From assembly GCA_902595825.1 (NCBI GenBank), contig CACJRP010000002.1, forward strand, positions 44,819 to 108,818: DNA of 64,000 nt, given 5' to 3'. Of this stretch, positions 12,038-31,004 are shown piece by piece. Source of the DNA: an uncultured Bacteroidota bacterium (GTDB taxonomy: Bacteria > Bacteroidota > Bacteroidia > Flavobacteriales > Flavobacteriaceae). How positions within the stretch are numbered: the first letter of the stretch is position 1; the number at the start of each line of letters is the position of its first letter. A program made the position numbers and the translations under genes. The notes under the pieces are model-generated. The model had not been told where the DNA came from. It saw nothing but the letters and a program-made list of their open reading frames with translations, and did not search any database.

Positions 12038-13201
12038 TCAAAAATTACTTTTATTTATTAGGTTAGACATATTCAAGTTTTCATAATTATTTCTAACATA
12101 TGAAAATGAAGCTGACATAACATCACCCATACTTTTAACTTTTTTAAAAGCCATATCTTTTGTGAATTTATATATCTCCAAAGATAAATTTTTAAGATAT
12201 TCTGGTTTTGATAAAGTGTCATTTGTCATAATTTCAACTAGAGTTTCCAGTCTAGAACCAGAACTAATTATTCTTTTTGCAACTATTGATCTTTCCTCAA
12301 TTTTATACTGAATTACTGAGTCGTGATTTAATCTATTTTTTACAAGCTTAATTATGGGAAAATTTTCTTTAAAAAACTGAGGTCTGTAAACTTTAAAACT
12401 TCCTTCATAACACTGTTGATCAAAGTCAATTGCTCTTATTTTATATACTACCTGATCAAAATCATGGATTGGTACCACAACGTAGTTGTATGATCTCATA
12501 TCTCCCAATAATCTTATCATACATCTTTCATTAAATTTGACATATTCCTTGGCGATTTGTGCTTGCTGACTAATTGAACACTTTTTTAATAAATTGTCTA
12601 TAAAAAAATCACCTGGAATACCCGAAATATGTTCTTCAATCAAAGTTTTATCATTAACTAAAAAATTTAAATTATATGGGGATAACATATGCTCAAACTC
12701 CAATCCATAAACCCTTGAAGCGTCAGTACATTTAATATAAAAATATGTAAAATTATCATTTAGGATGTTTCTGACTTTTATTCTAAATGGCTTAGAATTT
12801 CCAAATGTACAGTAATCAATGGCATCAATGCTTAGGTAGGGTAAAGATGACTCATTACCATCTGAGTGAAGAAGAGTGTATACTTTTTTTAAGTTGTGAT
12901 CTATATCTCTTCTTTCGGTATCACTATAATATACCCTAACCCACAATGTATCTTTATCATTTTCATCATATACTGCGACTGAGCCAGCAAATCTTAGGAG
13001 GTCTTGATATGAAATTGGAGTATAAACCCACCTATTATACTTTTTAAGATAAATACTTAAATTTTCTATAATAGGAAAAAAAGGTTTTTTTTTTGAAATA
13101 AGTTTCTCTTCCATATAACTTTCAAATTTAGCTTTCTTTTCAAAAGAAAACGAGCAATTATAAGTCAAATATTCAATAATTTTGTCCCAAATGAAATTCA
13201 A
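12038..13201 (-). CDS. Unnamed protein with protein-kinase-like catalytic motifs
   Basis: A 387-residue soluble protein that I do not recognise by name. Read by eye, residues 150-265 follow the order of a protein-kinase-like fold: a strand ending FTYFYIK (Lys157, like the VAIK lysine), a helix with GLEFEHML (Glu168 or Glu170), a hinge-like TLIEEHISGIPGDFF, a catalytic-loop-like LLGDMRSYNYVVV with Asp234 and Asn239 at the standard +5 spacing, and 20 residues later AIDFDQQ (Asp259, DFG-like). Residues 40-140 form an N-terminal domain of unknown type. The start is a TTG at 13201, overlapping the divergent uvrB start by 11 bp; a TTG-N21-TAGATTTG promoter candidate lies inside uvrB. The next Met is residue 30. 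Coding status is certain; the kinase reading is inference. Confidence 0.85.
   Translation of the reverse strand: MNFIWDKIIEYLTYNCSFSFEKKAKFESYMEEKLISKKKPFFPIIENLSIYLKKYNRWVYTPISYQDLLRFAGSVAVYDENDKDTLWVRVYYSDTERRDIDHNLKKVYTLLHSDGNESSLPYLSIDAIDYCTFGNSKPFRIKVRNILNDNFTYFYIKCTDASRVYGLEFEHMLSPYNLNFLVNDKTLIEEHISGIPGDFFIDNLLKKCSISQQAQIAKEYVKFNERCMIRLLGDMRSYNYVVVPIHDFDQVVYKIRAIDFDQQCYEGSFKVYRPQFFKENFPIIKLVKNRLNHDSVIQYKIEERSIVAKRIISSGSRLETLVEIMTNDTLSKPEYLKNLSLEIYKFTKDMAFKKVKSMGDVMSASFSYVRNNYENLNMSNLINKSNF
13177..13184 (+). promoter_or_regulatory. Candidate -7 box of the uvrB promoter
   Basis: TAATTTTG matches TAnnTTTG and ends 6 nt before the uvrB ATG. No clear TTTG or TTG is found 17-23 nt upstream. 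The box lies inside the 5' coding end of the divergent minus-strand gene. Confidence 0.35.
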
Positions 13202-29358: not shown

Positions 29359-30951
29359 TTATTTTAGATCAAGGACCCAAAACTTTTTTTCAAATAAATC
29401 AATACTATCAAACAAATTTTGAAAAAAAGTGTCACCATATTGAAGGTAAAAGTCAATAAAATTTATTTTTCTTTCTTGAAAAATACTGTCTGGATTGATT
29501 TCTTTATATATATATTTTAAATCATTTTCAATGGAACTCATTTTTCTTTTTTGAGCCTTCAATAACCTTTTTTCTAATTTATCAATTCCATTAAGTTGTT
29601 TTTTCTTTTGTGCATTTACAGCTCCCAAAAATGAGGAGTCAGTAATTTTAACTATAGAATCCAATACTTTAAACTGTTTTTTTAAGCTTTCTTTTAAGAA
29701 ATTTAAATTCATATCAATTTCACTATGCTTTTTAATATTTAGATTGATAAATTCATTTTTTTTAAGAAAAATCTCATTTTCATTTACTAAATATTTATTG
29801 ATTTTTCTCCTCATTTTTTGAGTTAAAAGTAAAATAGATGCGCGAGGGCTTATTATTGGAAATACAACACCATGATAGTCAAAAAAACTTTTTAACTGTA
29901 ACCAGTAAGACATTTCACTCGATCCTCCAATGTAACAAAGATTTGGTAAAATTACTTCTTGATATAATGGACGCATCAGGACATTTGGGGAGAAATTTTC
30001 TGGTCTTTTATTCAGCTCTTTTAACATCTCTTGGTGGGAAACGTTTTTATCAGAAAGATTGTATTTTGAATCTTTTCTAATAATTCTTTCTCTTGAATTA
30101 ACATTTAAATGAAATAAATTAATTTCCCTTGGATTAACTTGAGGAATGTATTTTTCTGAGTAAACCTCTTTGATACTATTTACTGTTTTATTTACACACT
30201 CTTTACATGTATTATTAATTAGCTCATCTTCCATGTAGGAAGAAAACATTTTTTTAAGATTGTGAGAATCTGGATCAATTATGATAAGCCCTTTTTCTTT
30301 AAATAATTGATGAACTAAACACCTAGTTGCTTTTGCTAATGTGAAATTATCCTTATAGGCAGATGTAATTATTTTTTTAATTCTTTTAGCTAGATTATTA
30401 GTTGGGAAAAATGTAAATATTTGCTCTAAAATAGCATTAAAATTATCTAACTTTATTCTGCCAACGGAGCCTTTAGCTTTTGTCAAATAATTTATTTTTT
30501 TATCTCTAAAATAAACCTCAGATATTTCATCAAAATCATGGTCTTCAGAAGCTAACCAAAATACAGGTACAAAATTATTTTTAGGATATTTTTTTTTCAA
30601 TTTTGCGCACGTGTTGATAACACTAATTATTTTGTAGATAAAAAATATCGGACCAGTTAAAATACAAAGCTGGTGTCCAGTAGTTATCGTAAAAGTTGAC
30701 TCTTTTAACAAAATGTTGATGTTTTTTAAGACTTTTTTGTCGTTTATGTCCGAGTATTGAGACAATAGCTCCTTTACCAGAATATTTCTCTTCGACAAAG
30801 AAAAACTTTTCTTCAACTCTATCTGTTTTTTAAAGTTTTTAATATCAAAACTTGAATTATAAAATTTTTTTAGAGCTTTATTTTCATTTAAAAAATCAAA
30901 TATAAAATCTGAATAAATTTTAGTTTTCTTTAAATCAATGTGTTTTTTCAA
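29359..30951 (-). CDS. bshC: Bacillithiol biosynthesis cysteine-adding enzyme BshC
   Basis: Proposed to join cysteine to glucosaminyl-malate in the last step of bacillithiol synthesis, the low-molecular-weight thiol of many Firmicutes and Bacteroidota. The 530-residue protein shows TGHQLCILTGPIFFIYKI near residue 95, then FVPVFWLASEDHDFDEISEV, then the substrate-domain stretch LPNLCYIGGSSEMSYWLQL, and a C-terminal coiled coil near 420-480. There is no ATG near the N-terminus; the TTG at 30951 gives the expected ...HIDLKKTKIYSDFI start. bshA and bshB are not in the window. Confidence 0.94.
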   Translation of the reverse strand: MKKHIDLKKTKIYSDFIFDFLNENKALKKFYNSSFDIKNFKKQIELKKSFSLSKRNILVKELLSQYSDINDKKVLKNINILLKESTFTITTGHQLCILTGPIFFIYKIISVINTCAKLKKKYPKNNFVPVFWLASEDHDFDEISEVYFRDKKINYLTKAKGSVGRIKLDNFNAILEQIFTFFPTNNLAKRIKKIITSAYKDNFTLAKATRCLVHQLFKEKGLIIIDPDSHNLKKMFSSYMEDELINNTCKECVNKTVNSIKEVYSEKYIPQVNPREINLFHLNVNSRERIIRKDSKYNLSDKNVSHQEMLKELNKRPENFSPNVLMRPLYQEVILPNLCYIGGSSEMSYWLQLKSFFDYHGVVFPIISPRASILLLTQKMRRKINKYLVNENEIFLKKNEFINLNIKKHSEIDMNLNFLKESLKKQFKVLDSIVKITDSSFLGAVNAQKKKQLNGIDKLEKRLLKAQKRKMSSIENDLKYIYKEINPDSIFQERKINFIDFYLQYGDTFFQNLFDSIDLFEKKFWVLDLK

Positions 30952-31004
30952 TTTTTTAAATTTAATTTAATCGTAAATTAATAAAGTATCCATTAAATTT
31001 TGTC

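Follow-up and report, generated by a model that had tools for sequence, protein, structure and literature searches.

The question raised by this locus is what kind of protein is encoded next to uvrB, and whether the kinase-like motifs read in it belong to a working enzyme. The window (the whole stretch of DNA that was analysed, 64,000 nucleotides) contains the gene at 12038-13201 according to the earlier note, which proposed a protein of 387 residues. All the motifs quoted there are present and in the order described, in a frame of the minus strand. The start had to be moved, as the 387-residue reading begins at a TTG within a non-conserved stretch. The first 29 residues of that reading are disrupted by stops or frame changes in same-genus orthologues, and the alignment of orthologue starts showed that orthologues from other genera begin at MEEKLISKKKP or its equivalent, that is, at the conserved ATG at 13114. 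For these reasons the gene is placed at 12038..13114, with 358 residues plus the stop. The residue numbers used here are those of the earlier reading minus 29 (K157=K128, E168/E170=E139/E141, D234=D205, N239=N210, D259=D230). The ATG of uvrB is at 13191, and the two genes do not overlap when each uses its own ATG. The N-terminal domain of about 140 residues proposed previously is reduced to an extra region of about 93 residues. The features of the gene are as follows:

12038..13114, minus strand: kinase-like gene, 358 aa; start from the orthologue alignment, single copy in its own genome, strong purifying selection (dN/dS 0.035-0.045 within the genus)
12836..13114, minus strand: residues 1-93, additional alpha/beta region at the N-terminus in the AlphaFold2 model, without family match
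12728..12835, minus strand: residues 94-129, predicted strands b1-b3 with the b3 lysine K128 (codon 12731-12733); alignment and AlphaFold2
12683..12721, minus strand: residues 132-144, putative alpha-C equivalent with E139 and E141 (E141 codon 12692-12694); alignment and AlphaFold2
12611..12646, minus strand: residues 157-168, b5 and hinge-like TLIEEHISGIPG; alignment and AlphaFold2, aligned by hhalign with the ABC1 hinge
12485..12508, minus strand: residues 203-210, catalytic loop LGDMRSYN; alignment of homologues and hhalign
12413..12427, minus strand: residues 230-234, putative metal-site motif DFDQQ; alignment of homologues and hhalign
12089..12370, minus strand: residues 249-342, predicted helical C-terminal lobe; AlphaFold2, low TM in Foldseek

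Conservation of the proposed catalytic residues was analysed in 46 diverse homologues (37-71% identity, several classes of Bacteroidota). K128, E141, D205, N210 and D230 are invariant, so the four residues whose conservation the first reading depended on (its Lys157, Asp234, Asn239 and Asp259) show no variation at all. E160, H162, D232 and Q233 are likewise invariant, and E139 is kept in 45 of the 46. Only 36 of the 358 positions are invariant in this set, and the joint invariance of the catalytic residues is therefore far from what would be expected by chance. Moreover, K128, E141, D205, N210, D230 and D232 are kept in 27 sequences at 55-97% identity and in 80 close homologues. The Lys-Glu-Asp-Asn-Asp set thus appears in the canonical order that defines the protein-kinase-like (PKL) superfamily.

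The surroundings of these residues are also conserved in the 46 homologues: E160, H162, G165 and P167 are invariant in the hinge-like segment, D230, F231, D232 and Q233 in the DFDQQ motif, and C102, N106, P109 and R111 in and around the short, conserved b1-b2 loop. The GxGxxG loop is absent from the protein, and its P-loop is divergent. Regarding the catalytic loop, flavobacteria present LLGDMRSYNYV, whereas distant members present LLGDMHSGNFV, which is close to HGDLHxGN, the form of this loop in small-molecule kinases and ABC1 proteins. C102 (window 12809-12811, minus strand), found in 46/46 sequences, lies at the end of strand b1, beside the predicted ATP site; it is possibly redox-sensitive, and such a property would match a function involving thiols.

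The structure was predicted by AlphaFold2 from the window protein and 79 homologues (pLDDT 88.2, pTM 0.87), and the core alone (residues 88-345) gave the same fold as the whole chain (pLDDT 89.5, pTM 0.85). The N-terminal region comprises helices 17-25, 36-40 and 65-83 and strands 44-49 and 55-62. The N-lobe contains strands 94-102, 110-116 and 121-129 (with K128), followed by helix 132-144 (E139, E141), and then strands 151-153 and 157-161, the hinge, helices 168-178 and 181-201, the loop with D205 and N210, strands 211-218 and 221-228, the DFD at 230-232, and the C-terminal helices 249-261, 264-297, 304-318 and 329-342. In both models the order of the elements (b1-b2-b3(K)-aC(E)-b4-b5-hinge-aD-aE-catalytic loop-b-b-DFD) is that of kinases, so the N-lobe, hinge and catalytic-loop arrangement expected from the initial reading is present.

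In the Foldseek search of PDB, the best 50 matches were all kinases or pseudokinases, with the whole chain as with the core as query, in a database where kinases are over-represented (probability 0.99-1.00; best E 2.1e-5 and 4.8e-5, respectively). Kinases were also most of the top matches in a fold search of a viral library. The TM-scores to PDB kinases are low (0.24-0.31 by query length for the whole chain, 0.32-0.42 for the core) and the rmsd is mostly 14-16 A, with one core match (rank 33) that spans 155 columns at 4.8 A. These values indicate that the match is confined to the ATP-site core elements and does not extend to a whole kinase. The low TM would be due to the helical C-lobe, which, according to the element list of the model, appears to differ from the standard kinase C-lobe. 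The nearest solved structures by fold are eukaryotic-type kinases and pseudokinases (JAK2/TYK2 JH2, SIK3 and CK1), but TM remains at 0.24-0.42, the family lacks GxGxxG, HRD and DFG as such, and the predicted C-lobe is different. The assignment to the PKL superfamily is well supported by these models, not proven.

No member of the family showed a consistent match in Pfam, NCBIfam or PHROGs, the PDB sequence search gave no related sequence, and none of the 46 members matched APH (PF01636), HipA (PF07804), ABC1/UbiB (PF03109) or the eukaryotic-type protein kinases (PF00069) in Pfam at E<=5. The weak Pfam matches to Tudor, CFAP300 and Utp25 vary between members and were rejected as noise. The family was also compared by hhalign with five kinase profiles (ABC1, HipA, APH, fructosamine kinase and Pkinase) built from relatives' genomes, the Pkinase profile consisting of two sequences only. 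Significance was reached for none of them; the best alignment to each placed GDMxxxN (D205/N210) on its catalytic loop, and the DFD fell on DFG or DWE for ABC1 and APH. The highest score was that of ABC1 (30.5, probability 5%); 35 unrelated neighbour families used as decoys did not exceed 21.0, a value against which HipA scored 21.9. As a yardstick, the profiles of APH, fructosamine kinase, ABC1 and Pkinase easily gave matches among themselves, but that of HipA did not.

Considering each known system, the ABC1/UbiB (ADCK) family shares the hinge, the catalytic loop (aDpHpGN versus GDMRSYN/GDMHSGN) and DFG/DFD in register, but its score is not significant, there is no Pfam match, and the N- and C-terminal regions differ. 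APH and fructosamine kinase (PF01636/PF03881) show an HGDLxxGN-type loop comparable to LGDMxSxN and DWE in the place of DFD, but neither gives a family match or a significant profile match, and the N-terminal region is different. The DDHxxN catalytic loop of HipA is aligned in register, but its profile is not significant and no HipB-like partner was seen beside the kinase-like gene. Hence, the likeness to APH and HipA kinases proposed at first is only loosely right: it holds for the register of the catalytic loop and not for the profile scores. HipA and the kinase-like family occur in genomes independently of each other, and no pattern of co-occurrence with ABC1 or HipA was seen by eye. No paper on such a family was found in the literature.

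Together, the invariant catalytic set, the predicted fold, the kinase-only fold matches and the in-register profile alignments support a kinase-like enzyme of an undescribed family. We consider it likely that the product is a catalytically complete phosphotransferase of the cytoplasm that uses ATP and represents a protein-kinase-like family, found so far in Bacteroidota, that is new and unnamed with respect to Pfam, NCBIfam and PHROGs. The core of the earlier note stands in this form, corrected in strand, start, domain lengths and neighbourhood. The enzyme is probably active. We infer catalysis and its chemistry, as well as the cytoplasmic location, the latter from a visual inspection in which no signal sequence was seen. 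If it works as PKL enzymes do, the ATP phosphates would be positioned by K128, itself anchored by E141, and the adenine would sit against the hinge (160-167); D205 would serve as the catalytic base, and magnesium would be bound by N210 and D230, probably with the help of D232/Q233. The acceptor would be accommodated by the extra N-terminal region and the divergent C-lobe. This acceptor seems more likely to be a small metabolite than a protein, since the loop of distant members, GDMHSGN, is similar to the form that the motif takes in metabolite kinases and ABC1 proteins.

Other readings of the same data have to be weighed. The low TM-scores and the lack of a significant sequence or profile match to kinase families could suggest a kinase-unrelated protein whose motif order is coincidental, but this is very improbable given that all the canonical positions are jointly invariant, the predicted element order matches that of kinases, the fold matches are kinases only, and five profile alignments are in register. 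A protein kinase with a HipA-like or ePK-like target that regulates a housekeeping process would agree with fold matches to eukaryotic-type protein kinases. This reading is nevertheless unlikely: the element list of the model shows no activation segment comparable to that of ePKs, the HipA and Pkinase profile comparisons are not significant, and the kinase-like loci showed no conserved partner with the size of an antitoxin gene. Pseudokinases with other chemistry usually alter the K-E-D-N-D set, and this set is complete here, which makes it quite improbable that the kinase active site serves AMPylation or ligation instead of phosphate transfer, despite the unusual invariant active-site residues (C102, the hinge H162, DFDQ) and the divergent P-loop; AMPylase and glutamylase activities do occur among PKL proteins (PMC10870513).

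Concerning its distribution, the kinase-like gene was found in 34 of 60 near relatives (one of them, G022, with a fragment only), in 96 of 295 genomes of the class, and in 100 of 396 genomes across Bacteroidota, about a quarter (one, G306, with a fragment only). The enzyme had been called flavobacterial, a restriction that has to be dropped, as homologues extend to other classes of the phylum. A strongly conserved and, from its sequence, apparently active kinase-like enzyme would thus be present in about a quarter of Bacteroidota without an entry in Pfam, NCBIfam or PHROGs. The gene was not found in plasmid, phage or viral records, and no consistent match to anti-phage defence or mobile cargo appeared in PADLOC, PHROGs, phages or plasmids. 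There is normally one copy per genome; within the phylum sample, two full-length copies (L156 and L157) occur in G149 alone, and L157 is the lowest-scoring full-length member, yet it keeps all the catalytic residues. The copy in G306 (L180), in a 7-Mb genome, looks decayed, with short matches and internal stops, which indicates that the gene can be lost. A flavobacterial-type copy, 67% identical, is present in a record titled Rhodospirillaceae (NZGX01000019.1), probably a mislabelled or mixed metagenome bin.

In the window, uvrB is the divergent neighbour of the kinase-like gene. This adjacency is found in its own genus, at the loci L007 and L020, and among the nearest Flavobacteriaceae in a minority of about a third; it was seen at none of the distant loci, so the genetic tie to uvrB proposed previously is not maintained. 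As a functional clue this linkage was rejected: uvrB is divergent, 27 of the 112 long loci have it no further than 5 kb away, and no distant locus is among these. The other frequent neighbours in Flavobacteriaceae (a 'MIYRFRVILDN...' protein, CtaA-like and ABC-type transporter genes) were also discarded, being gone outside this family.

The first clue to function comes from a class outside Bacteroidia. There, 11 of 15 fetched loci have bshA, a gene for the synthesis of the antioxidant bacillithiol (NCBIfam TIGR03999, 577 bits at L158), directly upstream on the same strand, with a gap of 9-114 bp. The kinase-like gene was found in 36 of 117 sampled genomes of this class; going by coordinates, 20 of these 36, from 7 of 9 families, have bshA next to it, and in two more bshA is no further than 3.4 kb away. 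Families f33 and f52 are exceptions, as is one genome with bshA at a contig break. Other genes of this region are also partly syntenic, and slow gene shuffling may account in part for the pair. Because of the gene pair, a role in bacillithiol metabolism is the best specific lead, a tentative one that is concrete and cheap to test. It bears on how cysteine is added and bacillithiol modified in Bacteroidota: as of 2015, no in vitro activity had been demonstrated for BshC, the cysteine-adding step (PMC4360819), and at least one flavobacterium, Polaribacter MED152, makes N-methyl-bacillithiol (PMC6282198).

As a specific form of the phosphotransferase reading, the enzyme could possibly be a bacillithiol helper that phosphorylates a precursor or the BshC substrate, or that makes a phosphorylated bacillithiol derivative. 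Besides the bshA pair, all genomes with the kinase among the 396 sampled also have BshC. Since BshC occurs in 385 of the 396, this co-occurrence adds little, and the absence of the kinase from the 11 BshC-negative genomes, where 2.8 would be expected, is weak evidence. With the kinase-like gene in only 100 of the genomes, the kinase cannot be a required step, and B. subtilis is described with BshA-C only. Furthermore, the bshA pair is missing in 2 of the 9 families of the other class, and no bsh gene is adjacent to the kinase-like gene in the Bacteroidia loci, the window included. A new metabolite-kinase family acting in the bacillithiol metabolism of Bacteroidota, which would produce for instance phosphorylated bacillithiol or a phosphorylated precursor, or an activated substrate for the BshC step, is somewhat doubtful.

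The window also contains, at 29359-30966 (minus strand), a bshC-like gene (Rossmann-like_BshC, E 2e-114) with 535 codons in the open frame. Some 16 kb separate it from the kinase-like gene, and the genome therefore has at least this one gene of bacillithiol synthesis. Moreover, a GloB-like hydrolase of the metallo-beta-lactamase fold is located just downstream of the kinase-like gene on the opposite strand (convergent) in L158, L162, L165, L170 and L171. It stays there even in the f52 loci where bshA is elsewhere, and it is a possible further thiol link.
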